Assembly: GCF_039555335.1 (NCBI RefSeq)
Contig: NC_092628.1
Coordinates: forward strand, 98,026,536-98,090,535
Reading direction: 5' to 3'
From: Amphiura filiformis
Lineage: Eukaryota > Echinodermata > Ophiuroidea > Amphilepidida > Amphiuridae
DNA length: 64,000 bases
The notes beneath the pieces were generated by a model. The model was not told where the DNA came from and ran no database searches. It was given only the letters and a program-made list of their open reading frames with translations. Below are positions 9,370 through 60,500 of the stretch, piece by piece. Numbering within the stretch: position 1 is the first letter of the stretch; every line of letters begins with the position of its first letter. A program made the position numbers and the translations under genes.

Positions 9370-9768
9370 CTACTCGTCCTGACTGAAGTTTCTTGATCCT
9401 GGCGTACTGATGAGCTTCACCATGTGACCGGGGAATCCCATTTCCCCCATGATGTCCCATAAGACTTGATGGTTGTCACAGTCAAATGCCTTGCTGTAAT
9501 GGATGAAACAAAGGTAGAATGGAATGGAATGTCCTCTGCATATTTCAATGTTACGAATTTTGACAATTTGATTCCTGGTACCTCTTCCTGCTCTGAAACC
9601 GGCCTGTTCATCTGCTATCTTAGTCTCGAGCCTCTGTCTCATTCTATTATTAATGATCTTGAGTAGAATCTTGCTGGCGTGGCTGATCAGGCTGATGGTT
9701 CGGTGGTTTGAGCACTCTTTTATATTTCTTTGGTATCGGGATAAATACTGCTCTCTTCCAGTCCTCAT
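9370..9768 (-). pseudogene. Reverse transcriptase N-terminal fragment of RTE LINE
   Basis: Contains NHRTISLISHASKILLKI, EQAGFRAGRGTRNQI and HYSKAFDCDNHQVLWDIM, i.e. RT palm and finger motifs. The catalytic YADD lies downstream in another frame (8923-8934), so this fragment is not functional alone. Confidence 0.8.
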
Positions 9769-10403
9769 TCCACCTCCCTCCAGATTTCATCACACAATTT
9801 CCACATGATGATCACACCTTGCTCTCCAGATGCCTTCCACAGTTCGCCTGGAATCTCATCACAGCCTGGTGATTTCCCATTTTTAATCTCTTTCATTGTT
9901 TGACGAACTTCATACAGGTGGTGGTTCAGGGTCAATTTCACCCGAATCATTGGTGGTGGATTCCTCTTCTGCTTTCTGTTCATAAAGCTCAGTTCAGTAT
10001 TCTGCCCATCGGGTCTTGATGTCTTTGGTCTCAATAAGTGTGTTGCCATTTCTATCATTCAGATCTTGCTTAAGTTTTCTGAGTCAGTTCCTTTACCAAA
10101 GCAAACACCTTTATTGTTTCCTCCATTCTGACATATCTCCTCTCTTTCTGTCATCCTGTCCCTTATTAGCAAACTCTAGTGACTTCTTAGATATCCAGGG
10201 CTGCTTCCATTTCTTCTTCTTTGCGATGTTTTCCTCTGTTGCACTTAACACCGCTACCATCATTTCTTCCCACAATTCATTTGCAGAGATTTCTTCCTCA
10301 TCTGTTCGAAGAAGTGCCTCAAATCTGTTCCCCATACTAACTGTGTATTGCTCTGGGATTTTGTCCTCATCAGTCACTCTCTACTTTGCTTTGAGTTTCA
10401 ACT

Positions 10404-10919
10404 TCATCCGTGCGACAAGTAGCTGGTGGTCACTGCTGCTGTCTGTGCCTGGTCCGTACACTGAGCAATGAAGAGTGCCATCTTCTTTTCAGCAAAAAGT
10501 TTCTCACATTGCCGCCAGGACTCCTCCAAGTCCACAATCTGCGAGGGTGCTGCTGGAAGGTGTTTCCAACAATCAGATCGTTTGCCTTCATTTCTTTCTC
10601 CCAATCCAAACTTTCCAATTGACCTTGATTTGTTGTCAGACTTGCCAACTTTTGCATTCCAGTCTCCCAAGATGATAAGCATATCTTTGCTGGGGATCTT
10701 ATCCATTACATCTTGGAGCTGACCATAAAAGCTTTCCATAGCTTCATCAGGTGCAGTGGATGTTGGTGCATAAACCTGGAAGATCGAGATGTTGAAAGGG
10801 TGAACATGCAGTCTGAGAGAGATGATTCTGTCGCTGTATTGGGTTGAAGCCCAGGGAGAATCTAGATGTATTCCTGTCCGACAAGATAAAACCAACTCCG
10901 AATTCCCGTTTTCCCTCAT
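10404..10919 (-). pseudogene. APE-type endonuclease fragment of RTE LINE
   Basis: Contains VYAPTSTAPDEAMESFYGQL and LIILGDWNAKVG; the GDWN motif is an endonuclease active-site block. The frame is lost after GERNEG, and TFQQHPRRLWTWRSPGG continues in a neighbouring frame (about 10590-10540). Confidence 0.8.
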
Positions 10920-11767
10920 CTTTGCCTGAATATATCACTGTGTATCCGTTGTCTGCAGTAAAACGTTCTTGGTTGAGCCATCAATGTTTCTGATATGCCC
11001 AGAATACAAATGTGCTGCTCTTCCGTTCTGGATGTAATGATCTCTAGCTTTCCAGCAGTCATACCTTGAACATTCCATAAATGTTCCTATGACTTCCATA
11101 TTCTCTCAGGTTCATGCTGCTCCTTTCGTGCTCAGGGTTGTCGGTAGTACACTCTGCGTCATTACAGTTGTGCCTAGTGAGTCGGATCAACATGTTCCTC
11201 TTCCCCAGTAGCAATTGGCGCATCGTCTGACCGATTCCCACCATTGGTTGCCGGGTTTCTACATTGATTACGGCCTCTCGCATTAACTATCTTGGCTAGA
11301 AGTGAATGCAGTAGGTGGCCGGGTCCTTCTGCATTAATGGAATTGCTGGCACGGCGGCCATCCAGCTCTCCAGAGCCGACGTATTTCGTTTCACAGGATG
11401 CCCAGCCACCCTTCTCACCAGTATCCAAAGAAAACTAGTGGGGGAGCCAGTTCAGTCGCCGACAGCTCGACCCTGAAGTCGTACTGGATACAGGTTTCCA
11501 GTAGCAGGTCTCCAGACCTGAGACGGAGCACCCATTTGGAAAGACACCCGAGAGAAACCCAGCACCAAGAGGTGCTGGTAAGGTTAACTTTCAGCTCCTT
11601 TGCAGTGCTAGGTGCTAGGCACTACCTCCTTTTTGGATTTGGCGTGTCAAAATCAGTAAAGATACATAGGTTATCAACTTTTATGTAAGCACAAATTTGA
11701 GATTTTCCTCTAGTATAACAGAGAATGTATGTGTACGAACTCATCCCCAGTTAACTTCAAAAGTGTA

Positions 11768-13741: not shown

Positions 13742-14972
13742 CCCTTGTCTCTTATCACAATACTCCATGGTTTCCCCTTTCAAGTTTCATAGCTTCTTGC
13801 CCGCGCGATTTTATATTTTAGTTTATACGATATGACCCCAGGGGCGAACCTTTGTAAATCTGTATACCTTCTCCCCGTTAAAATTAAATGGTACCGTCCA
13901 ATGTCCTTATATGGATAAAATTAGTGACGTCGTTCAATTGTTATCTGCTAGGGGCGAATTATGTCAACGCAAGGTCGTTGGACCACTGAAAATAAACGAC
14001 CGGCGTGTCAGACTAGCAGGATGAATGGTTATGAATGGATCGCACACATACGGGAGCACTAATGATCTACATCTACCGAGGGCGATTCGTGATCAGGCTC
14101 TAATTTAGCATGTTATGAAGTTAATGGCGTTTGTTTGACTCAGTCATATAGTAAAAACGTATGTAAGAGGAAGACAATACTTGAAACAATCGGAATAATT
14201 AACGATATCGTGGAAGGAACGGCTTGAACATGATGATCGTATCGATTTAGCTAGCGATATGGCGAGATGCAGGTCAGATTCAGATGATGCGCGGTATACA
14301 TACAGTAGCCGTAAATAACGTTCGGTAATGCAGCAACGGTGATGCATGCACGAAACTGAAACAGGTCGGCTTCTGAAAATAAAATAACATCACTCATCAT
14401 CGACAGGCATACATGCAGCCATCTTTCATCCGATGATGAAGCAATTGGATGATTCAAAGAAACTATAAATACGGATTACAAACCACGGCATCACTCAAAG
14501 GGCTAGTCACCAGATATTATTTTCGGTCCATGAAACAGCATTGTTATACCAGTCGTCGCCATAGAGCGTGTCAACTAGTATTTTGAGGTAAACCAAAGTG
14601 AACTGATATCGCTGTGCAGTGTGTTTATGTTTTCCATTTTCTACTTGTATTCAGTATTTCGTATTTCAGTAGCTGTAAAACAGTCAAGAAGAAAAAACAC
14701 GTATGTATATGGATTCATTCCGGCTTTTCTACATGCAATTGGATCGCGACCCATAATGAACGACTTTGAAATTGACTTGAAAATACTGGGTATTTTTCAT
14801 ATCTGAAATCTGATCTTTCATGTTTGTGGCAAATAGACTTCGTTGCTATATCTTCTTGACCCACTCGCGGTGGGACTCGGGTCTTGACTCTGGTTTTTAT
14901 ACACACAGACAAATGGTATTCAATGTCCATTTTAAATTGTCGGCTCAGGTAACGTCCTCTCCTGACACCAAA
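13742..14972. other. Upstream region of the ARL4-like gene
   Basis: Unique-looking sequence with no recognisable exon. It probably holds the promoter and 5' UTR of the ARL4-like gene. A TTTTTATACAC at about 14891 is a possible but unproven TATA-like site. Confidence 0.35.
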
Positions 14973-15555
14973 ATGGGGACAGGAATATCGCAGCTCCGGG
15001 TGCAAACCCTCTTCATATCGTTCTACTTGGATTGGACGAATCCGGAAAACCACGGTCTTGTACCGTTTGAAATTAGACGAATTTATCAACGCCGTCCCTA
15101 CCATCGGCTTCAATGCCGAAAAAGTGACTCTAAGGTATGGAAAAGCGAAAGGAATACGCATGAAGATTTGGGATGCCGGAGGGAGTGAGAAACTCAGGCC
15201 ATTATGGAAGTCATATACCAGGGCGGCTGAAGGGATTGTTTTTGTTGTTGACAGTTGCGATTCAGAACGATTTGAAGAAGCAAAAAGTGAATTATTACGG
15301 GTAGCAAGATATCCCGAAAATCACGGGATTCCTGTGCTTATTATTGCCAACAAACAAGACTTGAGAGAGGCGGTAAATACAGATGAACTTGTCGAGACCT
15401 TGGGACTAAAAGAATTGAGGTCGCAACATCCATATCAAATCCACCCCGTGTGTGCTATTACAGGAGAAGGGCTGATTGAAGCCGTAGATTCACTTTATGA
15501 TATGATAGAAACAAGAAAAAGAGCTGATAAATTCCAGAAAAAGAGGGGCAGGTAG
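14973..15555 (+). CDS. ARL4: ARL4-type small GTPase (two apparent 1-base frame breaks)
   Basis: Translation in three successive frames gives one collinear ARF-like GTPase of about 194 residues, the length of vertebrate ARL4A/C/D. MGTGISQLRVQTL starts at 14973. From 15014 a second frame reads HIVLLGLDESGK, the P-loop. From about 15040 a third frame runs to the TAG at 15553-15555 and includes PTIGFNAEKV (switch I), WDAGGSEKLRPLWKSYTR (switch II), GIVFVVDS, NKQD and CAITGEG. The C terminus is basic (KKRGR), like the nuclear-localisation tail of ARL4, and position 2 is Gly, a potential myristoylation site. The gene has no introns, as usual for ARL4. Each frame change needs one added base in a T or A run. 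The glutamine normally following WDxGG is Ser here. ARL4 proteins act at the plasma membrane in cytohesin/ARF6 signalling. The A, C or D subtype cannot be assigned. Confidence 0.87.
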
Positions 15556-17115: not shown

Positions 17116-20100
17116 ATACTGTTTAGATTTGGCCAAAAATACTTATAATTATAAATGAAATTAAATTTTCCAATTTGAATTGTTGAAAATTTGCACACTG
17201 TGAAACAGTCTCTGCCTAAATAAATATTAAGCTATAATAAATATAGTCTGCAATGTATTTAGAGTCTGAGACTATAATTTAAATATTAATATTATGTGGG
17301 CTACAGTGCTCAGCAGATCAATAATGTTGTTATTACAGTTTGATCGTAATCGATATCGTTGTATTGTTGTTCTGCTTAGGACGTCTGTATTTTTAAGAGT
17401 AATATAACCAAACAAAAAAGAACATAAGATTTTTGACGTAAAGTGGACAACACCTGCTGGGATGACATGACAAAGATATATGACTTTTCTGTTCAATTAA
17501 TATTTGCCTCAAAATATGATGACGTATAAACTATAATGTAAAACCACAGGTTTGGACAACAAGTAAACTATAAATATCACATTCACAGCACTATATTCAC
17601 TTTGTTTTTGACGATTAAGAATTGGTTTCTGAGAAATAACGGTCATCTGGAATCTGAGATGAAATGGTTACCTGTTAATTACTTTATACACAGGACATGC
17701 TGAAACTTAAAAAGGTTACTTTTAAATTTCGCCTCAGGAAATTTGTTTCAAAAATGTTTTTGTTGAGACCTTTGTTTTTCAGAAACCGATTCTTAAAATT
17801 CACTTTTTCTGTGACCTTGCATCATTTCAACTTTGTTTGTCCTCCTCATCAATATGAATTGTTTCAAACAAATGGGAATCTTAGAAATTCAATTTATAGT
17901 CTAAATTATATTTGACGTACATAAGGCTTTTGTATCTTCCATTCATAGAACCATGTGCACCAAGTATTCATTGTTAACTATTTTGTGTATTCTATATACC
18001 TACTGTATTAACTATATATTGTTTTCAACATAATTTCTGTAATGTGCAATTTATTAAAATGCTCATATTCTGTATACATAAAATTGAGATTGAGTTACCA
18101 TGGAAACAACTTCACCGATGAGCTCTTAGGTTCTTGAAATAAAAAAACAACCTAGTGCATTAAGCCGGATCTCCCTGCTGCCATATCACACTTCTAAATA
18201 ATTATCAATGTGTAGGGGCCTAATTGATACTAAAAAGTAAAAACCATGATGAAAACAAATTAGTTTCAATATGATCTACATGTACAACATATTGTGTCAC
18301 CCCAGAAGGGCAGCATCTGCATACGACCTGCATGACATTGGGATCTGTGATGACATCATCATCATCCAGCGATCAGTCACCAGAGTCAAGTTGAGGGATT
18401 GCCATTTTCAATTTGCCGTCACTGCCGAAGGGATCGAACCTGCAAAATCTCTGGAAAACAACTTGATCTGACCACAGATATTGGATGTGATCTGACGTGA
18501 ATGCTTTTCCAGACATTGAAAATGGTCGATCACCATGCACATTTTGTTCCTTACCCCACTGTTTGTTTGTATCAAACATATTTTGCACATTCCCGTTGGT
18601 AGGCCTACTACATGATAATTTTGCTTCAGAATAAATTGGCCTGGATATATTTATCATGATGATCACGAGCGTGATTGATCCTTATGGAAGATCATAATAT
18701 AACTTATAAGCTATTAAAATATTCATTATTCAAATATCTGTGACCTATTTCTAACATATTAAAAGTGATAATTAATCAGATTGCAAATATATATTTTGTG
18801 GTTTCAGATGCATCAGTTGTATCTCCCATGCCAATTTAATATCTGTGTGCCAATTGGACTGCTGTATAAATTACACCAATCAATATCCAATATTGTCGCC
18901 TGTTCATGTATAATTAAATGGTAATTAAATATATACCCGTGCTAATTATGTTTGTAATTGCTAAATGGGGCGTTCAATAACAGATGTGGTTTGTAAAGGC
19001 CTAATTATTCTGAAATACACGCGACATGCATGATGTGGAATTCGGTTTATTTTATTTACATTTTAAAGCTGCCATTTCAACTTGAATACCTTTCCACTCA
19101 TTTTACCAGGATATCATATACACCTACGTTGGTTAAAAAAACATTTTTACGCTGGTTTAAAGAGAATAAATGTACTACATAGTACATGTATAGAATGTAT
19201 TGTGCTATACATTCCAATATGATATCTGCCTAGGACGAGTCTATGAAATATATTGCCACAATGTACTTTATCAAACTAATAATCGACATGTTATGTGTGT
19301 TTTATCATTTTAGATCTGGACTATTAATTAGAATTTTCATTCGGCATAGTTGTTAGCAATAGCTGTTGCATTTGGTCCTCAGATGGTTCTAATTAATTAT
19401 GTTGGTATCACATCTTCACCGTACATGCATGCATGGTTACTCTTGAACCTGCATGGGTGAACACTAACAGGAAAGTCACTTAGTATCGATCATTGCAGGC
19501 CAGTATGCTATATGAAAATTATAATTATACAGTCATGTTTGTGCTTAATTAGGCCTCATCTGGATAATAATTGTGTTTGTCCATAACTTGACATGAGTAT
19601 TCAAATTTCAAAATACGCTATTATCCAAAAGTGTGTAGGCCTAAAATGCATTCATATTCGTGAATTGTCACAGAACATGATATTATGTCAATGGTATCAA
19701 TTCTATAAATGTGTAATTGTTATACAGTTTGGTTTATGAAATATATGTATACATTCCACCAAATTTTGTAATATAAAACAATCTGAAATGGTTTGTAATT
19801 TAAATGTATCCCAGGAAACATGTCAAATACGTCAATATACGCATATAATATCTCTGCAAAGTTTGTATTCAATGTACATTGTCGTATTTACCGTCCTGCA
19901 TTTATTTGTTTGAAAAAGTCAATTGTTTATAATGTAAAGGTCAGGTTTGGCATGCCACGAAATTTAAAGAGGTCATAGGTTGAAAGTAGGTACATATATA
20001 TTGGCAAAACAATTGCATCCAAACGTTGACCCAATGTATACTTTAACTTGCTGCTTTCACTGTTAGCTATCTATACTGTTATTTTCGGTTGACCTGCAAT

Positions 20101-37193: not shown

Positions 37194-37565
37194 CTAAGCT
37201 TTCCTGGTGTTAAAATCCTTTTCACTGCTGCCAATCCAAGCCCCAAGGTATTTGAAATCGTCAAGTACTTCAAGGTCGCTTCCATCAAGTGTTCGGATTG
37301 GGGATGCAGCCATATTGCAAACCATTGCCTTGGTTTTCTTGGCGTTCATGCTGAAACCGACTGTTAGTGCTGCAGTCTCAACAAGATGGAGTAGCTCTTC
37401 AGCATCACTGAGACTGTCGGCCAATAGTGCTATGTCGTCAGCGAAGTCGAGGTCTGTAATTGTTTGCGGGCCTATCCTCCGACTTTTCCTTGTTTTTAGT
37501 GTGAGCCCTAGTAGTGCTTTCCTGAGAGCATAGTCGAGGACTGTTACAAATAGAAAATGGTGCAA
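37194..37565 (-). pseudogene. Reverse transcriptase fragment with catalytic FADD
   Basis: Begins DYALRKALLGLTLKTRKSRR and contains TDLDFADDIALLADSLSDAE and DFKYLGAWIGSSEKD. It continues the RT of the preceding fragment in another frame. Confidence 0.85.
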
Positions 37566-37941
37566 GTGTGTCCCCCTGCAGTACTCCAGCCTGAATTATG
37601 AAGTCGTATGTGATTCCATCTGGTGTGGTAACATGGGCAACAGTGTTCTCATAGGTGTTTCCAATAGCCGCCGCCACAAGTTTCTCTGGTACTCCATATG
37701 CTCTTAAAATGTCTAGCATTTTCCTTCGATGGATGGTGTCAAATGCCTTTTTAAAATCGATGAAGACCAGTGCTGCTTGCAGATTGTTGTTCTTTATCTC
37801 TTCAATAATTCTTCTCAAGGCCAGTATTTGTGACACTGTCGACCTTTCAGGGCGGAAGCCATTTTGTGACTTCATTCGTAGTACAGGATCCAGGAAGGGA
37901 CGAATTCTGTTGAGTAGTAGTCTGTTGTAGGTCTTTGCCAC
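37438..37941 (-). pseudogene. Reverse transcriptase fragment (N-terminal and central)
   Basis: Contains NGFRPERSTVSQILALRRII, FIDFKKAFDTIHRRKM and AGVLQGDTLAPF, consecutive RT motifs. The frame changes just before the FADD box. Confidence 0.85.
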
Positions 37942-38824
37942 TATGGATGATAAACAGATGCCTCTGTAATTCCTTCCTCTCTGAGATCACCGCTTTTTGG
38001 AATTGGGATGAGATTGAGAATTGACCACTGCTCAAGTTTCCTACCATGCAGTAATGCCTCATTACAGAAATAGAGTATGATGTCATCAAGGTTGCATCTC
38101 TTTAAAACTTCTGGTGTGATTTCATCATCACCTGCACTTTTTCCTTCATTGATGACCTTCTTTGCTGCCTCGTACTCTTCCTGATCGAAAGCATCTGTTT
38201 GCATGTCAAATTCCCGATGCACCTGCTCTATCGGCTCATCCTCATTGGTGATGACTGGTGGATTCCCAAGTAGCTGCTGGAAATGGGAAAACCAAGAATG
38301 CAGTCTCTCACTCTCTGTGATCCCTTTGATCTAACCTTTATTGGCAGTTCTCCTTCCACTGACCTGATTTATCAGATCCCATGCAGCTTTGTGCTGGCAA
38401 TTTTGATCTGCTTTCTCTACCTGGCTGATCTTTTGCTCCAGGATTCTTGATTAATTTTGTCATATGTCTCTTTTAGGTGATTCTTCCTTGCTTGTATTTC
38501 GGATCTTTACACTAGTGCATTCGTGGGTATCCTTCACATATGCTTCATGCACTTCATTCCGGGCACTCTCTGTTCTGGAATCAGTCCAGATTGTCCCCTT
38601 ATGGCGTTTGGGGGCCTTTGGTATCAGTTCTTCCGTAACCTCCCGGTTTGCCTGTATGAAACATTGATATGTGGATGTAGCATCTTCATCACCCTCACTT
38701 TCATGTTGCAGAGCACTGAATCTATTCCGTACTTTAACAGCATACAGGTCTTGTAGTTGCGTGTCTTGTGCCAAAACCTTCCAGTTGTACCTGATCTTCC
38801 GTGGTGGTGTCTTGCCATTCGATC

Positions 38825-39322
38825 TCAAGCTGAGACGTACTTTTGCTGTAACAACACAGTGATCCGAACGATGCTTGCGAAGGAGTTGTAGGTGCAACAA
38901 TTGAGAATGCTATTCCTCCACTTCCTGCGTACAAGGATGTAGTCAAGTTGTGCCTTAAAACCAGATGGTAATGTACATGTCCATGATCTTGATTTTTGCT
39001 TGCAGAAGCTCACATTTGCTATTTCCAGTTCATTCTCTATTGCCAGTGTGTGCAACAATTCTCCATTTCTGTTGGTGGAATCATGGTAGGGGAATTTGTA
39101 GTGCTCTTTGCCAACTCTTGCATTGAAGTCGCCCATTACCATAAGGAAGTTGTGAGCTGGAACTTGTTTGATGGACTTGTCCAGTAGCATATAGTGTTCT
39201 TCCGACTCTTTCTCATCAGACACTTTAGTTATACAATTACTATACATTATAGCAATTATACTCAATGAGTAACATGCCCCTGCAGTGAAGCAGCAAGTTA
39301 ATAAGTTAACTTCATGGAACAC
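38825..39322 (-). pseudogene. APE-type endonuclease fragment
   Basis: Contains NFLMVMGDFNARVGKEHYKF, NGELLHTLAIENEL and WTCTLPSGFKAQLDYILVRR, the GDFNARVG and LDYILV motifs of LINE endonucleases. The SDHCVV box that should follow lies in another frame at about 38880. Confidence 0.8.
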
Positions 39323-39400
39323 AGTAACTTGATATCGATATCAAGGTAGGACTTTGTCTGTCATGAAATCTATCTCTACCTTCATGGGCTTTTCAGTAAT

Positions 39401-48500: not shown

Positions 48501-51500
48501 TTTTCGACCGACATGACCAAACTTTAAAAGTGTCATCAGAAATGGTCCGAGTTTTAACGTAACCATGAGTATTCAAGCTGTACCATTATGATGCATGCTA
48601 GCCGCTTCATTATGAATACCAATCTGTGTGAGGTTGATGATTTGTTAACAGCTGTAATGTTGGTGAAGTGACCGCATTTGTAACATCTGAAACTCCAGGG
48701 TACTTGGCCAGCTCTGCCACTTTAGGAAGACTGAAAATTGTCTTTTATTTATTTTATTTTACAAATTCGGCTAAAAATACATCAAAAAGCAAAGTAAAAT
48801 TACGCAATACATACAAAAGGAAACAAAAGTAAAAATAGACCCAATGGGCTAGCCAGGAAGAGTCAGAAGCATCGAGACACTGTCACCAAAAGGTGTGACT
48901 CCTCCAACCCATTGGGGCAATTACATAAAAAGATATACTGTCAGTATTGAACTGGATTGCAAAGTATTTGTAAATTATTTGAATTTGTATATTTTTTTTT
49001 ATATCAACAAATTCAATTGTAATAATCTAATATATTTTGGAAGTTTAGATTATTAAACAGAACTTTCATGTGACTTTAATTATTGTTGGAAAGACATGAA
49101 AGACGCAACTTGTATTTTTGGATGAACACAAGTTGATATGCTACATTTGTTGATTTGTTGATATTCAATTTAAAAATACTTGATATTAAATTATTAAACT
49201 GTTTCATGAATTGATTGAAACACTTAAAAATGTTGTGGATGCCTTGATAGATATGTATTATGTTTGTCATCTAATGTGAACATTAACTTTATTAAATAAG
49301 ATTCAAATTAGTGCAGCTTTTGTTAAAAAGTCAATTGTGCCAAGCATTGTGAAACACATTCTGACATACATTCTTGTGGCAACTAAAACACAGCAGAGGT
49401 TGTGATTCTTTGTTTTGAGTAAAGTTTTTGATTGGTGATTCAAAGTTTTGTTTGATGATCACTGATAGCCTTCTGAAAAGGACTTCTTTATGGAAAGATC
49501 ATCATGAGTTAAATCTTGATCATTGCTTGTGCTTGACATATAGCTAAAATGTAGAAATATAACTTTTTGGAATTTGATTGATCCTATTGATCTAATTGTA
49601 CTTGGATAAGTAATTACATATTATTGCATTTGTAAGCATCATTCATTCATTCATTCATTCATATTTATTCAGTACTCACATAAAAAATATTACAGCACAT
49701 ATGATAAAAAGATACATTATAAATACATACAAGATGTGGTCAATTGCATGAAAAACCAGATATAACAACGAAATGTATGGATTATGGAGTAAACACCAGG
49801 CGAGTACCAAGGATAGCCCAAAAAGCCTCAATAAAAATTGAGGCTTATTTCCATTGGGGTCCTTAAAGAAAAAAGAAATGGGGGAAACAAGCAGATCAGG
49901 CAACAGAACCAAATAAATAAATAAATAAATAACTCCCAATAAATAAATAACTCCCAAACCCAAAATATTGCACATAAAATAACTAAATAACACCCAAACC
50001 CCATATATTGCACATAAATACGACCAAAAGGAAAAAGATCAAACCCCATCAATACCTGATGAAAGATCTCTGCTCAGTTCTTATGGCTTGATCCATCAGA
50101 TGTTTTTTGACGGTTTTTTTAAATTGGGTCAAATTGGTGATCTGTTTGATGGAATTTGGTAAAGAGTTCCAATGTTTGATGCCACTATAAAAAAAGGTGT
50201 GACTAACATTACCGTGGTTTCTTGGAACAACAAAATTGTATGGGCTATCCCTGGTACCGTAGTTATGCAAAGATTTTGTACGGGTAAAATTGGCACTTAG
50301 ATAGACTGGGGCTTTTTCATGGAAGATTTTAAAAGCTTGATTCAGTTTCAACTGAATCACCCTATCATGAACAGACAACAAACCAATTTTGTTCCGCTCT
50401 GCTTGACCAATGTGTGCACGAGGACCCAAGTCCAAAATGAACCGCACAACTTTATTTTGCATGGTTTGCAGCCTGTTCTTAAAATGTTGTGAGAGAGAGG
50501 AATACCATGAAGAGCATGTATAATCATAATAACACATAATAAGGGCATTGCAAATTATCTTGCGTGTGGTTAAATTTAAATTACCAGCTTGTCTATACAA
50601 GAACCTCAACCGTGCGCTAGCCTTTTTAATAATATCTTGAGCAATTGACTCCCCATTCAGTGTTTCATCAAGGGTCACCCCAAATATTTTGCAACCTTGG
50701 AGGATGTTATTTTCTGACCACCACAAGAAACAGAAATGAATTAACTTTCCCAAGTCTTTTTTTTGTACCAAATAGCATGCACTCCGTCTTTCCAAGGTGT
50801 AAAGAAAGTTTATTGTCTATAAGCCACTGTCTACATGAGTCAAGCTCTTTACCAAGTCTCTCTGCAATGTGCCCTGGATTTTTGTCAGACACTAAAAGAG
50901 CGCTGTCATCAGCGTAGAGCAGAAGCTTGCAGTCGACACTGCTGGCCATGTCATTCACGTAGCAAAGAAACAAAAGGGGCCCAAGAATGCTGCCTTGCGG
51001 CACACCGCACGAGACACCAAGGGGATTAGAGTCAACATCGTTTACATTGACAATCTGCTTCCTGTCACTAAGGTATGATGAAAACCAGTCAACAGAAGAT
51101 ACACCCATGGCTCTAAGTTTTTGGCAGAGAATGACATGGTCAACAGTGTCGAATGCCTTCTGTAGATCAATTAAGACTAAACCGTGTAATTACCTCACGG
51201 ACATTTGACTCCTGATATAGTCGTTGAGATGAATTAAGCAGGTATCAGTAGAAAATGAACTCCGAAATCCCGATTGGTACCCATACAAAATATTATTTTC
51301 TCTCAAATAGGTCTCTAACTGAGAATACACAGCTTTTTCCAATAATTTTGATGTAACACATAAAATGCTCACTGGCCTGTAGTTTCCAACCTCAGAGCGA
51401 CTATTTTTTTTGTACAAGGGTTTTACACGAGCAAGCTTAAATTCAGTTGGTACAGTGCTAGTAGCTATTGACACATTAATTATATGGGTCAACTGATTTT

Positions 51501-54500
51501 TAATAATGCTGCCCCATCTCTCAGAAATTTGGCAGGAACTCCATCAAGGCCTGTGCTTTTGTTGGGATTAAGAGAGCGAAGCTCTTTCAAGATAAAATCA
51601 CTTGACACAGGGCATAATTTAATAGTGCCCAGCACTATGTTGAACAAAGGAGAAGTCGTGCGCTTTCTTTGTTAAAAGCAATTTCTCAATTGATTTCATT
51701 GCATTGGAAGGCAAAGATTGAAATAAAACATGTTTCCTTTTTTTTAAAGACCGTTTAGTCCCTAAAATCCAAGATGGCCGCCGTGATTGAAAATTTGCCA
51801 TATTTTACTCATAAATTGCGCTTTAGTAGGGTACAGAATGGAAGTCCCCTTCTCGGGTTGAGTACAAGACGTTTTGAAGGTGTCTCTTTATAGATTTGAG
51901 GACGCTGAATAAAATGAGAGAAGTCTGCACCATCGAAAAGTGTGGGAATTCTTGGTAGAGGCGTTTTTTCAAGATGGCCTTAAAATCCCTTAAAATCACC
52001 ATAACTTGGTCAGAGAAGCACCCAGCAGCACGATTCTGATGTCTATACCCATGTTTTCAGGGTCAAGGAATCCAATAGAGTAATTTACAACAGCCTAGAG
52101 CCTATCATTCCAAGATGGCTGCCAAAATTTCAAAATGGCCGCCAGTGAAAATTAATTTGGCTATATCTCGGGTGCAAAAAGACGTAGACTCCAGATAAAG
52201 CAGTCCAAACCCCAAATAAGGTGCCTTAACCCTAAATAAGGAACATATATATAAACCACAGATAAGGCATCTAAACCCCACGTAAGGTGCCTTAACTCTA
52301 GATAAGGATCGTTAACCCCAGATAAGGGTCGTAAACCCTAGATAAGGCATCTAAACCCCAGATAGGGCACCTTAACCCCAGATAAGAGACATAAACCCCA
52401 GATAAGGCAGTTTAAACCCCAGATAAGGCGCCTTAACACCAGATAAGGAACGTAAACAACAGATAAGGCATCTTAATCCCAGATAAGGCGCCTTAACTTC
52501 AGATAAGGATCGTTAACCCCAGATAAGGGTCGTAAACCCCAGATAAGGCATCTAAACCCCAGATAGGCGCCTTAACCCCAGATAAGAGACATAAACCCCG
52601 ATAAGGCAGTTAAAAAACCCCACTAAGGCACCTTAAACCCTAGATAAGGAACACAAACCCTATGGTTGATTCGGACAAGTATGGACTAGGCAGATGATCA
52701 GTTATGCTGCCCTCAGGTAGTTATCGTTAGCACTAAACATCTGGGTGTCAATGAATTTTCAAGACAACATATCAGCCTCCATTTAGAAACTTTCTCCATG
52801 AAATTGGGGCAATATTTTTCATTTTCAGACCATTTTATGTAGGGTGAACAAATAACTTCTGGTTGCATCTTTGATTTAAAGGCAAAATAGTCATATATTT
52901 CCCTCATACTGGGACGAGATTTTTGGCCAAGAAACAGCCCTGATCTCAATCCAGTTGAAAATGTGTGGTCTATAATGGAAGAGAAAGTTTACTCTCCCCC
53001 ATTTGCCACAAACAAGAACATGCTGGTCAAAATAATCAAGGATGCATGGGATTATGTGAAATTGGGAGGCCATACGATTCTTCCTAATCTTCTCGAGGGA
53101 TATCACGGGTGGAAGAATCGCCGCTGCCGCAAAGTGATAGAGAACCAGGGAAGGGAAAGTTTGTAAACATTCAGTTCTTCAGTTCATTAACTTTATATAA
53201 AAGTACAGTTTTACCATAATTCATGTAAATATATTGTGTTTTATTCATTTAAACATACTTTATGATATAGGTGGTCCATTCTTATCCGAATCACCCGATA
53301 TAAAGGTAGTCTAAATCCTGGATAAGGCATCTAAACCAAGATGATGCGCTCTAACCCCAGATAAGGGACCTGAATCTAGGATAATGCAGTCTAAACCCCA
53401 GATAAGGCGCCCTAACCCCAGATAAGGGACGTGAATCTAGGATAACGCTGTCTAAACCCCTAAACCCATTACATTGTTGTCAATGGGAAAATGGCTGATT
53501 TCGGGTGGAATGTTCTCAAATTCAGAACTCTCACAGTTAAATAAAGTTAAACGCCACCAATTTCAGGTGAAACTAGATGATTTAGATCCCAAATGATCAA
53601 AAACTCAACATAGGTTGAAATGAGACTTTTCGCAAACAAATTGGCATTGTGCCCTTGAAGCTGAAAGTTACAATTAATTAGATAGGGCTAATATAATGCT
53701 AAAAAGTGTCATATAATGAGAAAAATATACCATTTCGAAGCATCAAAACCCAAAATGTACTTTTTTGGCTATATCACTTGGTCAATTACAGTGATTTTAA
53801 ACAGTCTTTTCAGATGCCACGCAAACAAATAGTTCATCATTTCCATGCATCGCCCAGGCCTATTAGTGGTGTATAACCATGTACTAGTGCCATGAGTAGG
53901 TACTGTATCTGATATGCCGTCCATCTTGGACCTGGCAAGGGGTCTGGTTATGTAAAACATTGTGCTTTTGGTTCAAAGACATAATTATACACTTGGAAAC
54001 ATGATCATAAAAACAAACTCATATACATTTAAGCAGTATATAAGCAGCCTCACATTGATCCTTTACTGAGAAGCAACCAGTCTGGCTTTAGATCAGGTCG
54101 AAGCTGTGCTCAGCAAATACACATTTTGAGGAGGATCGTGGAAGGCTTCAAGGAGTACCAACTTCCCTTGACAGTCACTTTTGTGGACTTCAAAAAAGCC
54201 TTTGACTCCATCAACAGGTCCGTCATGTTCTCAGTGCTGCGGCATTATGGAATACCAAAGGTTGTGGTCAATGCCATCCAGGTGCTCTACAAGGACTCCA
54301 ATAGTGCCGTTATGATAGATGGAAGTATCTCAGAGCCTTTCCAAGTAACAACTGGAGTGCTTCAGGGTGATGTGTTGGCACCATTCCTGTTCATTATCCT
54401 GGTAGACTACCTCCTGAAAAAATCAACTTCTGGAATTGATGCTGGAATTGTTACCTACCCAAGCAGGTATCCTGCTAAGATGCTGAATGACCTGGATTTT

Positions 54501-57500
54501 GCTGACAATATTGCCCTGTTGGAATCTTCTATAGCCCGGGCCCAGTAGGACTGCAACAGCAGCAGCAGATCTAGGCCTTGTCATCAGCGCACCTAAGACA
54601 GAATATATGACTGCAAACTGTAACGCGCCAGCCAGCACTTGAAGTCTATGGTAGTACCATCAACCATGTCACAGACTTCAAGTACATGGGTTCCAAGATG
54701 GGCTCTCGTGTTGGAGACCTAAAAAGAAGAAAAGCACTAGCCTGGGCCGCTTTCTGGAAACTGGGAACGCCTTTGGAGAAGCCCATCCCTGCCAATCGGA
54801 ACAAAAATCAAGCTGTTTGAGACAACTTGTGTCACTATCCTTCTGTACGGGTGCGAGTCATGGGTAATCACCAAGGACATGGAAAACAAGATCAATGCCT
54901 TTGCAACATCTTGCTACAGAGTCATGTTAAACATCAAGCGTGTGGATCGGATCCCAAATGAAACCATCTACAATCTGACCAACACCACTCCACTGGTTGC
55001 CAGAGTCAAGATTCATCAACTCAAATGTCTCGGCCATATACTGCGTCTTGAAGATGACGAGCCTGTGAAAGAATATGCCCTTTATATTCCACCACATGGG
55101 AAGAGGAAACCGGGACGGCTAGAATATTAAATATATCTTCAAGTGCCTGACACAATGCTAGTTCCAGTGTTTGAAATTTAGATTTTGAGCATACTTTCAG
55201 AGAGATATGTGGCTTTTTTGCATGTGTCAGCCAGTTTTACAAGATTTTGGCGGCCATCTTGGATTTTATACCACTTACCATGAAATATTACATGTTTCTT
55301 TGAGTGTCTGACACAAGGCTACATAGTTCCAGTGTTTGAAATTTACATTTTAGCATATTTTGAGAGCGATATGTAGCTTTTTAGCATGTGTCAGTCAGTT
55401 TTATAGGATTTTGGCGGCCATCTTGGATTTTACCAGTTACTCCGAAATATTAAATCTTTCTTTGAGTATCTGACACAAGGCTACATAGTTCCAGTATTTG
55501 AAATTTACATTTTGGCATATTTTAAGAGTGATATATAGCTTTTTTTTTGCATGTGTCAGTCAGTTTTATAGGATTTTGGCGGCCATCTTGGATTTTACCA
55601 CTTCCACAAAAATAAAAAATGGAAACATCTTTTTTCCCATTATTTACCCCCACAAGAGACAAAATCAAGTGAAAGTTTGCTTTTAACACCGAAATCGCAC
55701 GACTCGACATAGTGCTGAGCACTATAAAGGCATTAGCTGACACGCCCAGTTTTTCGTAATGGCTCGAAAAAATTGTGGAGTTCACGCTGAACTTTCCGAG
55801 AGAGGCAGGCAATTTGTTGACTAATGTGCTTGCAACAGTAGTATAGAACTGGTTGATATGATTGGCAACTGTGTTAGGATCAAAACAAAGGTCACCATCA
55901 ATTTTAAGAGTAACACGAGATTGATCCTTGCTTTTATTACTGTAACCCAGGGTTTTCAGTTGCTCCCAGAGTTTTTTAGGATTGAATCTAAATTCTTCAA
56001 TTTTATCCCTATTCTGTCGGTCCGTGTCACGTCACTTCCGGTTGATGATGTTCAAGTGAAAACAAGTCCGTGATTCGATTTTTGTTGATGATTTCTATCA
56101 TTGGTGTTATGTAAATTTCGACCGCAAATAGTCAGTGGAATCACACAACCGTTTCTAAGTCTTCAGAGTGGAAGAAACTTACTTGATTTACCGTTTATAT
56201 ACTGACAAATTTAAAATTAAATTCCATGGTCGAGTGTTGTTTTTTCCGAAATTGAATGCCACTCCAGCAACATCGCTATGTAGCCTCCTTCACAGCCGGT
56301 TTTTGTTGTTCATAACAAACCGTGAGCCACATGCAGTTTGGGCCCGAGACTAGAGATAGCCCGGATGTCCGACCGACAGAATACATTATTGGTGTGCAAT
56401 TACAAAATGTGTAGTTGGATAGGTACACTTAATGCTCGTACATTTTGTATTCACAAAATTGCAATATTATTTATTGTGTGGATATTTGAAAGTATAATCA
56501 TTTAATGATATTTGAGTCATACTTTGAGCAGAAATCATAACTTTCAGATCAATTGGAATTGAACTTTGGAAATATTTATATAGTCATAAAATGACTTGAT
56601 CTAAATAAATGATGTATAAAACTGTTTTGTAAGGAGTAAAATATTAATGTCTTTGTAAAAGAAGAGAGAAGATTACAGACTGAAATAATAATTTAAATGT
56701 TGTGATTAAATAATAGTTTGTGTCTTGTGTCCGTTTTCTTGCTGTGTGCATAGTACTTTGCTGTTTCACTTTTCTCACATGTCATTTGGGTAGTATATTC
56801 AGGTGTCCTGTGACAAATGCAGTGTCCTAATGATAACTGAATTGTCACTTTTAGATTACTGAATTGTGCAGGAAAATATACTTTTTGCAACATGTATTAA
56901 ACCTTGGTGCAGGTCTTGACCAGCTAATGAATTTGTTCAACAATTTCTCCCCTTTTAACACTTTGCAATACCTACCATGGACTCTCCAATCTGGTTTCAT
57001 CTGTTGTCTGAGGACACTAATGGCCTGATAACACATCACTGCTGCATCCAATGCATTCCTTCCTTCCCATGGGAATGCCGCTGCATGAGCTGGTTTACCT
57101 ATAAACTTTATTTCTATTCTGAAAGAATGAGAGGACAAATAATTAGTAACCATTATGTATCATGTGAATAACTAATTAGTTTTTTTTAAAGCATGCTGAG
57201 TGAGTCTATGAACTGGTTTTGGTTTTTTTACTTCTTGCACATCATGGCAATTGAAAGTTTATACAATGCCATTACCCCCAATACTTGTTTGAACACACAA
57301 AATCTTATTCTAAATCATTAAGCTAACATTGGCATTGAACTCTCTTTTAACACCCTACCAGCTTGGGCTCGTAATTTTTAATTCACTCATATGCTTCTAC
57401 CAAGAGACATATTGTACTAAATCTAGTAAGGCTACCATGCAATTTATGTATATGGTGAGCATCCTTTCAATTCCTTTATAATCTGCAATAATCTTGGGGG

Positions 57501-60500
57501 AGCCCTGATTAGTTTTAGATATAAAGTACCGTATTCATTCCAATAAGCGCCCATGCCCCAATAAGCACCCACCCAGGGTATTTTCAATTTGCTAAAGGGT
57601 ATCATCAATGTTGAAGTGACGGATAGACGTCAATACACATACAGTGAAATAGCTGGAGGACTACAATGTATAGAAGTCCTGTGTAAACTTCCAATACATT
57701 TTCTACGTATCAGAAAAGCTACTAGAACGTCTCAGGACCCATTTATAACATACATAAATTTGTCTCTAATAAAAATTAGGTAAAACAGGTAAAAAATAAG
57801 CGCCCACCCAAAATGACATTGTTAAGCGCCCTGGGCGCTTATTAGAATGAATACGGTACTGTAGTCCCAATATCCACCTATTTAATGATGGTAAATCCAA
57901 TGTTTACAAGTTACTTATTTGGTGCATACGCACCAATATGTACCTTGCGCCAATCGATCCGTGTTCAACGTATAAGTGACGTATATTTTATTGCATTGGA
58001 GATATAGGTAACCCTGAAAATAGGGACCCACATTTTATGATTTTTCCTATAACTACACTAAGCCAAAAAGAAACTTATAATTTTTCACAAGGTCGTATCT
58101 TAAAATCCTGTCCATCAAAATTAACCAAAATGACACACATGATTGCCTCAATACTCCACTCTAAACACATGTCAATAACCAAGCAGTTGTCCAACTGACA
58201 CAATAGCAAAATGCAGTGATATGGAACAGCTTCCTGGACCACATTCACAGCCCTATTGGCACTCAGCAAACGAAATCTGTGAGAACGGCATTTTGAATCA
58301 CAGGTCACAAACTTACCAGGATCATCATGTCACATGTCCAAGCAAATAATGAAGTCCTTTAGTAACGGGTATGTCCACCATGCGCTTGCACGCATGCTGT
58401 GCACCTGCTTCTCATGCTTCCAACCAAGTTCCTGATGATATCCTGGGGAAGATTGCCCCATGCTTCCCGTTACTAAAGGACTTCATTATTTCTTTGGACA
58501 TGTGACATGATGATCCTGGTAAGTTTGTTTTGACTCTCTTTAAGGGCTGGGGTATGAACGTTTGGACAGTATTTATTTTGGGACATTAGAGCACATCAGA
58601 CATATCGAATTACATTCTGAATATGAAGAATGTCATTCTGATATCAAATTCTGATTCTGATTTTTGAAATTGCAATTTAATACACATTTTATGGCAAATC
58701 ATTAAAATTGATATTTTTGATATTTAACAGTACTTGAAGTAAACTTTATAAATCTGATGATTTATACTTAAAGTGTATGTAGGTGGGATGAAAAGTCGAC
58801 GATCAATTGAAAATTTTGACCTTTCAGTATTGAAGATATGGATTTTTTTCCCAAAACACCAAAAAAATTAGGTCTTTTGGGAAAAAATCCATATCTTCAA
58901 TATGAAAGGTCAAAATTTTCAATTGACCGTCGGCTTTTCCTCCTGCTACATACACTTTAAGAATATATCATTAGATTTATATAATTTACTCGAGGACTGT
59001 TATATATCAAAAATTTGAAAAATATCTAATTTTTATAATTTGTCATAAAATTTGTATTATATTGTGATTTTAAAAAATGAAAATTATTTGATATCAGAAA
59101 GACATGCTTCAGATTCAGAATGCAATTCGATAGGTCTGAGGTGCTCTCATGTCCCACAAAAAATACTGTAAACGCATAATAAACGCTTCATTTTGGATCC
59201 CTTAATGTTTTTAACTTAATGTTGTTAAAATTGTTGGCTGTGACCTGTGATTCAAGATCATTCTCACAGATTTCTTTTGCTGGGTGCCAATAGGGCTGTG
59301 AATGTGGTCCAGGAAGTTGTTCCATATCAGTGCATTTTGCAGTTGTGTCAGTTGGCCAACTGATTGGTTGCTGACATGTGTTTTGAGTAGAGTACTGAGG
59401 CAATCCTGTGTGTAATTTTAGTTAATTTTGATAGACAGGATTTTAAGATATGACCTTGTGAAAAATTATAAGTTTCTTTTTTGGCTTAGTGTATAAAACT
59501 ATTAGATGTACTATTATTTTTATCTGTGGGATGAGCTTTCTGACAAGAATATTACCACCTTTTCATCTCTCAAGAGGTTTGAAGAATTTTATTGAGATTT
59601 ACAATAGCAGCTATTTTGACGTCTGGTAATGTCAAACGTGAGATTTTTGTGTGGTGTATTTGAAAAAAATAAAAATAAAACAGTGGAAAAAAAGTGAATA
59701 ATCAGTGAAACTGTGTTCAGTCAGTACATAGTTTACATCTTGCTTGACTCTGGCATAATATAGCCCACTCGCTGATCATGCAACAGAAATGAAAATAATA
59801 AAATATAGGTACTTGTGATGAGAATGAAGCAAAATTATTTAATTTGGAATCACTCACTGCTGAAGAGCCAAATACTTTGGCCGAGGGACATAAAATGAAC
59901 ATCCGTGTGCCATCATGGCCACATCAACTCCCTCAAAAGCTTTGCCATCAATCATCATCTTTTTCCCACAACCACCCTCCTCTGCGGGGGTGCCCAGTAC
60001 TGTGACCTAGGTCATAAAACACACAAAAGTATGTTTGTTAAGATATTTCATCTTCCTTTGGTGAAGTTTTAAACAAATAAAGGTGAAAAAGGGATAAAAA
60101 TGTGACCTCTTCAATTTTGACAAAAACATATTTTATGGTATAAAAGTAGTATGAAAAATATGAGATAATAGTAACTAGTTTTGTATCTTTAGAACATTTG
60201 ATTTGGAAATTTAAGGTAAGTAGTTATGGTGGACGAAAACAACATTGGCATAGAAAATCAAATTTGGCACTTTCTCAAAAACTGCTCATTTTGTCATAAA
60301 TCTACTGCGCTAATTGAAGAATTCCTTGCATCATTTCCTTCCCGAAATTGTATCAAGTCATCATTTCTTTAAAAATACAATACAAAACAATATGTTCCAC
60401 TTCTAGTGACCCTGTGTACCCCTTAAGCACAATGATCTCAAATTCTCAATCTGAATCAGTTACTTCAGAGTCTACTTCTGAAAATCCTTCCTGGTGTAGA

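Follow-up and report, generated by a model that had tools for sequence, protein, structure and literature searches.

A TAA-flanked element with long terminal inverted repeats and palindromic tips interrupts a LINE reading frame in Amphiura filiformis

Introduction

What splits the reading frame of a LINE in the genome of Amphiura filiformis, and what kind of mobile DNA could have done so? The question was raised by an initial annotation of 64,000 nucleotides of contig NC_092628.1 (hereafter the window, whose numbering is used throughout), which described a 4.1-kb element with terminal inverted repeats (TIRs) and assigned it to no known family. We analysed the borders, ends and interior of this element and weighed the superfamilies to which it might belong.

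Results

Borders and the interrupted reading frame

The element spans positions 51623-55724 (4.1 kb), with TAA directly outside each end (51620-51622 and 55725-55727); its base-level layout is TAA, TAGTGCCC...GAGCACTA, TAA. Reading out the sequence confirmed the initial placement to the single base.

51620-51622, no strand assigned: TAA target-site duplication, left
55725-55727, no strand assigned: TAA target-site duplication, right
51492-56013, minus strand: CR1-like LINE frame split by the element, made of 55728-56013 and 51492-51622, from frame joining; RVT_1 further downstream

Among the direct repeats of 2-8 bp compared near the ends, TAA, TAGTGC...GCACTA, TAA is the longest and most symmetric arrangement. 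Excision with one TAA kept joins the flanks as an open LINE frame; indeed, the protein is split between ANAF and KLCPVSSDF, as first noticed, and removal of 51623-55724 plus one TAA restores it. The 3' continuation of the interrupted LINE carries an RVT_1 domain (E 3e-22, 50707-51189), and the LINE is a putative CR1, as the initial annotation labelled it. CR1/Jockey proteins generally show F-x-L/F-x-x-V/I-S at the position of the junction. No relative of the joined LINE protein in viral_contigs aligned across the junction, so the precise empty site is defined by frame continuity alone. A 20-residue match within the window (19760-19819, E 1.4), considered as junction support, was dropped, the surrounding frames being devoid of LINE content.

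Frame continuity is shared by two other choices of border. An AT duplication with ends AGTGC...GCACT also leaves the flanks in frame, with one extra residue (ANAFIKLCP), and a cut at the CACTATG heptamers described below does so with six extra residues (IVLGTI); a 2-bp TA border does not keep the LINE frame. The split frame had been said to prove the borders: excision with TAA is in frame as claimed, but the wording was slightly strong because the 2-bp AT duplication keeps the frame too. We prefer TAA because, next to ends of the form T...A, a TWA duplication would itself produce the AT match, whereas under the AT reading the TAA match would be a coincidence of roughly 1 in 64.

Other features were seen along this LINE and elsewhere in the window. 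Towards its 5' side, this LINE stretch bears a second, short TIR insertion of 370 bp (56012-56381). It is flanked by TA, has the ends TTCTGTCGGTC...GACCGACAGAA and is by appearance a Tc1/mariner-type MITE; joining its flanks does not recognisably extend the LINE frame. More decayed LINE-like frames were found by eye on the minus strand at 9370-10934 and 37194-39340, the one scanned yielding RVT_1 at 37438-37986. On the plus strand, 14953-15555 is open for 200 aa of an Arf-family GTPase (Pfam Arf, 2.5e-47); this frame enters the domain at profile position 27 and is exon-like. Together with the LINE reverse transcriptases, it gives the window a eukaryotic character.

Terminal inverted repeats and tips

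51623-51782, plus strand: left TIR, 160 bp, ending at the inner block TAAAATCCAAGATGGCCGCC, from alignment
55578-55724, minus strand: right TIR, 147 bp, from alignment
51623-51637, no strand assigned: near-palindromic tip TAGTGCCCAGCACTA, from motif scan and folding
55710-55724, no strand assigned: palindromic tip TAGTGCTGAGCACTA with perfect 7-bp arms, from motif scan and folding

The alignment of the two TIRs has 147 aligned columns, 109 of them identical, and 13 gap columns; the local score of 123 compares with a maximum of 42 over 200 dinucleotide-shuffled pairs, in agreement with the imperfect repeats of about 160 bp first reported. Both ends open with TAGTGC(C/T)CAGCACTATG, with symmetry at 11 of the first 12 bases, and the near-palindromic TIR starts seen earlier, TAGTGCnCAGCACTATG, are present at both borders. 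When up to 2 mismatches are allowed, the pattern TAGTGCNCAGCACTA is found at just two places in the 64 kb, which are the element borders (four listed matches, that is, two sites on both strands; shuffles gave a mean of 0.16 and at most 2). The palindrome by itself is not rare, since the right-hand 15-mer is one of nine odd palindromes with perfect 7-bp arms in the 64 kb. As folds, the tip hairpins are modest: single-stranded DNA of 51623-51660 reaches -4 kcal/mol (3 of 200 shuffles equally good), that of 55687-55724 reaches -4.7 kcal/mol (18 of 200), and a third tip stretch was equalled by 9 of 200 shuffles. Outside the element, at 57825-57839, lies AGCGCCCTGGGCGCT, a G+C-rich palindrome with perfect 7-bp arms.

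Interior of the element

52180-52653, plus strand: minisatellite left of the nested mariner, 20-bp period, unit AACCCCAGATAAGGC.., with higher-order rows of 40, 60 and 201 bp
52663-53298, plus strand: Tc1/mariner-like element, nested and flanked by TA, with TIR T(C)GGkTGATTCGGAyAAG
53320-53460, plus strand: minisatellite right of the nested mariner
54033-55130, plus strand: LINE reverse-transcriptase fragment in two open frames, of which the first holds RVT_1
55159-55611, plus strand: 2.8 copies of a 162-bp unit, with GGCGGCCATCTTGGATTTTA three times

The left interior begins with a unique stretch carrying repeated CAAGATGGC. Minisatellite flanks the nested mariner on both sides and was thus split by this TA-flanked insertion, which retains a C-terminal DDE_3 remnant (52891-53163, E 3.9e-06, 27.2 bits against a Pfam cut-off of 28.6). 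To the right of the minisatellite, a stretch without known content reaches about 54030 and is followed by the LINE fragment (RVT_1 at 54033-54548, 2.6e-17) and by the array, whose units are 87-93% identical among themselves and whose period, initially given as 164 bp, measures 162 bp. Minisatellite, mariner remnant, LINE fragment and array are all present as listed in the initial annotation, but this cargo is less odd than was held there, because the mariner remnant lies inside the minisatellite as an insertion bordered by TA and because TIR elements with tandem arrays have been described. These include Tetris of Drosophila virilis (PMC4079207) and a Porphyromonas MITE carrying a minisatellite (PMC4596501); both resemble the present element, at the level of description, in having inverted ends that enclose tandem arrays, and the latter differs in being bacterial.

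Each 162-bp unit has a 20-bp boundary block in common with the left TIR (score 40, a value that none of 200 shuffles attained in any of the comparisons). For the right TIR, 16 of 200 shuffles attained the score against unit 1 and 6 of 200 the score against unit 2; its score against unit 3 was reached by none of 200 but is discounted because the compared stretches overlap by 21 bases. The left inner region (51783-52200, minus strand) scored 42, 39 and 44 against the units, with shuffle maxima of 33, 32 and 43 (100 shuffles). The idea that the TIR is itself a 162-bp unit was rejected beyond the shared boundary block.

Search for a transposase

The Pfam scan covered 22 of the 33 ORFs of at least 45 aa, the remaining 11 overlapping the minisatellite, mariner or LINE stretches. 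None of these 22 frames showed a transposase belonging to the element, as the first inspection had suggested; the sole trace is the sub-cut-off DDE_3 match, part of the nested Tc1/mariner-like insertion. The same frames matched no Harbinger-type DDE or Myb/SANT domain, the pair expected of autonomous PIF/Harbinger relatives, no Transposase_21 and no RAG-type protein. Besides RVT_1, a sub-cut-off DUF6451 match fell on the LINE fragment, and four sub-cut-off matches to unrelated families were obtained (best E 0.0032). NCBIfam, run on 10 of the 33 ORFs, gave two weak and unrelated matches, and Rfam gave none across 51400-56500 at E up to 1.

Subterminal motifs

51770-52119, plus strand: three exact CAAGATGGC sites (51770, 51970, 52111), inward-facing
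55253-55590, minus strand: three exact CAAGATGGC sites (55253, 55417, 55582), inward-facing, inside the 162-bp array
51633-51639, plus strand: CACTATG, left, 10 bp inside the border; the letters of the ProtoRAG TR1 heptamer
55708-55714, minus strand: CACTATG, right, 10 bp inside the border

Absent from the initial annotation and new here is the layout of CAAGATGGC: all six exact occurrences in the window lie within the element, three per end, and all face inward. The six are not independent, because the right three are copies within one array and thus count as a single origin. Allowing one mismatch brings the window total to 23 sites, where 13.5 are expected; 3 of 100 shuffles reach that total. 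Of the 17 inexact sites, 14 are outside the element, and one of the three inside (54694) points outward. CACTATG has nine further occurrences elsewhere in the window, both strands counted, and is therefore weak when alone. In the available parts of two reports on lancelet ProtoRAG ends (PMC7481187, PMC8289069), CACTATG is the TR1 block and GCCATCTTG is a YY1 site and the TR5 block. RAG-like membership was examined because both of these end blocks are present in the element, and the connection is kept as a lead only.

Search for relatives

No second copy of the element ends was found inside the 64-kb window. Exact scans of viral_contigs with three longer patterns returned 0, 0 and 0 matches, and the bare 15-mer returned 37 loci with one exact match each. 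In genome_contigs, the exact pattern matched once, in a contig titled Ilumatobacter (L001), where no second end was present within 8,000 of the contig's 119,633 bases; by our own arithmetic, 19 fixed bases over 257 Gb give about 2 matches by chance. In the parts of these 38 loci that were examined, two loci (L018, L031) contained one more site, which differed at 2 bases and lay on the same strand. With the TIRs as blastn queries, L001 matched over 21-22 bp, 16-bp matches arose at the pattern itself, and other TIR parts had short matches in L002 (21 bp) and L015 (31 bp, E 0.039). The viral_contigs loci and the short blastn matches were taken as chance and rejected as relatives; exact-pattern scans of viral_contigs and genome_contigs thus yielded no relative of the element. 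Six 15-mers of the tip were printed in none of 5.39 million papers, a scope that excluded Repbase and Dfam, and 10-mers from the tips occurred in six papers, none of which, judging by title, concerned such an element.

Discussion

Classification

We consider it very probable that the element is a decayed, non-autonomous cut-and-paste TIR DNA transposon, moved by a DDE/D transposase acting in trans with a 3-nt stagger that left the TAA duplication. A TIR element with a TAA duplication, as first proposed, is supported by the TIR score, the matched flanks and the restored frame; this basis is the one copy examined. The element is thus of a known kind and ordinary as such. Its ends match no family that could be compared, and the family is possibly undescribed.

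Within this reading, the TAA duplication somewhat favours PIF/Harbinger (PHIS superfamily), an assignment we regard as tentative and a little short of probable. In the available portion of a survey (PMC4482050), PIF/Harbinger elements have TWA duplications and TIRs of 5-1042 bp, so long TIRs are possible there. By the same source, A or G is the usual first base of these TIRs and about 93% of them are shorter than 60 bp, whereas the tip here begins with T and the TIR is about 160 bp, which bears out the earlier remark that the duplication fits this superfamily and the termini do not.

A non-autonomous element of CACTA/EnSpm type, with about 10 bp (TAGTGCnCAG) outside the CACTA core, is an unlikely alternative. 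CACTA stands at positions 11-15 of either end, CAAGATGGC is repeated near both (on the right, within one array), and CACTA elements are described, in the part of the source at hand (PMC8978399), with 3-bp duplications and subterminal direct and inverted repeats; one beetle TIR core is a single base off CACTA (PMC1636069, in part). However, CACTA is required at the very end of such elements, whereas here it starts 10 bp inside and the border bases are TAGTG; moreover, the animal relatives covered in the portions available have CCC ends and 2-bp duplications (SmTRC1, 7 of 14 copies, PMC1636069; Spongebob, PMC4298943).

Less likely still is a separate animal cut-and-paste lineage, with palindromic ends in which an outward CACTA(T) half-site is joined to an inward one and YY1-type CAAGATGGC sites lie behind them; such a lineage would have the heptamer and YY1 block in common with RAG-like elements but duplicate 3 bp, and would be a side branch of Transib/RAG or convergent with it.

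We find it very doubtful that the element is itself of RAG-like/Transib type, non-autonomous, with CACTATG as the true ends, a 5-bp duplication (CCCAG/CTGAG) and a palindromic target in the LINE. Excision at the heptamers keeps the LINE frame, and the two blocks correspond to ProtoRAG TR1 and TR5 (GCCATCTTG; PMC8289069, PMC7481187, in part). Against this, the flanks CCCAG and CTGAG agree at 3 of 5 bases and differ at 2; the heptamer lies 130 and 117 bp from CAAGATGGC, compared with 27 and 31 bp in ProtoRAG, the second block is reversed, and the heptamer is 10 bp inside the favoured border, which has a 3-bp and not a 5-bp duplication. The element also fails to match the protostome RAG-like consensus CACTWMCAAACKTYKBB (PMC7204232) after CACTA, and under heptamer ends the TAA flank match and the TAGTG/CACTA symmetry would both be coincidences.

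Equally doubtful is an ISL2EU-type element, for which the duplication would be AT and the ends AGTGC...GCACT. AT flanks are compatible with the LINE frame, and ISL2EU elements duplicate AT and have TIRs of up to 259 bp, but their target A|AT|T differs from the A|AT|A found here, and their ends are usually GG, where AG is seen here (PMC4482050, in part).

Hardly credible, finally, is a composite of nested repeats with inverted ends and a TAA match by chance: the interior is a patchwork and a single copy is open to examination, but the TIR score is far beyond shuffles, the same border also has an exact direct repeat, and excision restores the reading frame.

Proposed mechanism and significance

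Returning to the non-autonomous TIR transposon, cut-and-paste by a transposase encoded elsewhere is most likely. A DDE/D transposase from a related autonomous element would act in trans, pair the two palindromic tips and excise the element; insertion into T|TAA|A of a CR1-like retrotransposon, by cuts staggered by 3 nt, would then duplicate TAA. The inward-facing CAAGATGGC sites near the ends are putative subterminal binding sites, for an accessory protein of the transposase or for host YY1. The interior may at some time have gained the minisatellite, the Tc1/mariner insertion, the LINE fragment and the short array.

If the element exists in many copies, it would be another non-autonomous DNA transposon from an invertebrate-like genome, with well-defined borders for searching. 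Only if its autonomous partner proved related to RAG/Transib or to CACTA would there be a wider point, in that its ends would show the variability of such ends.
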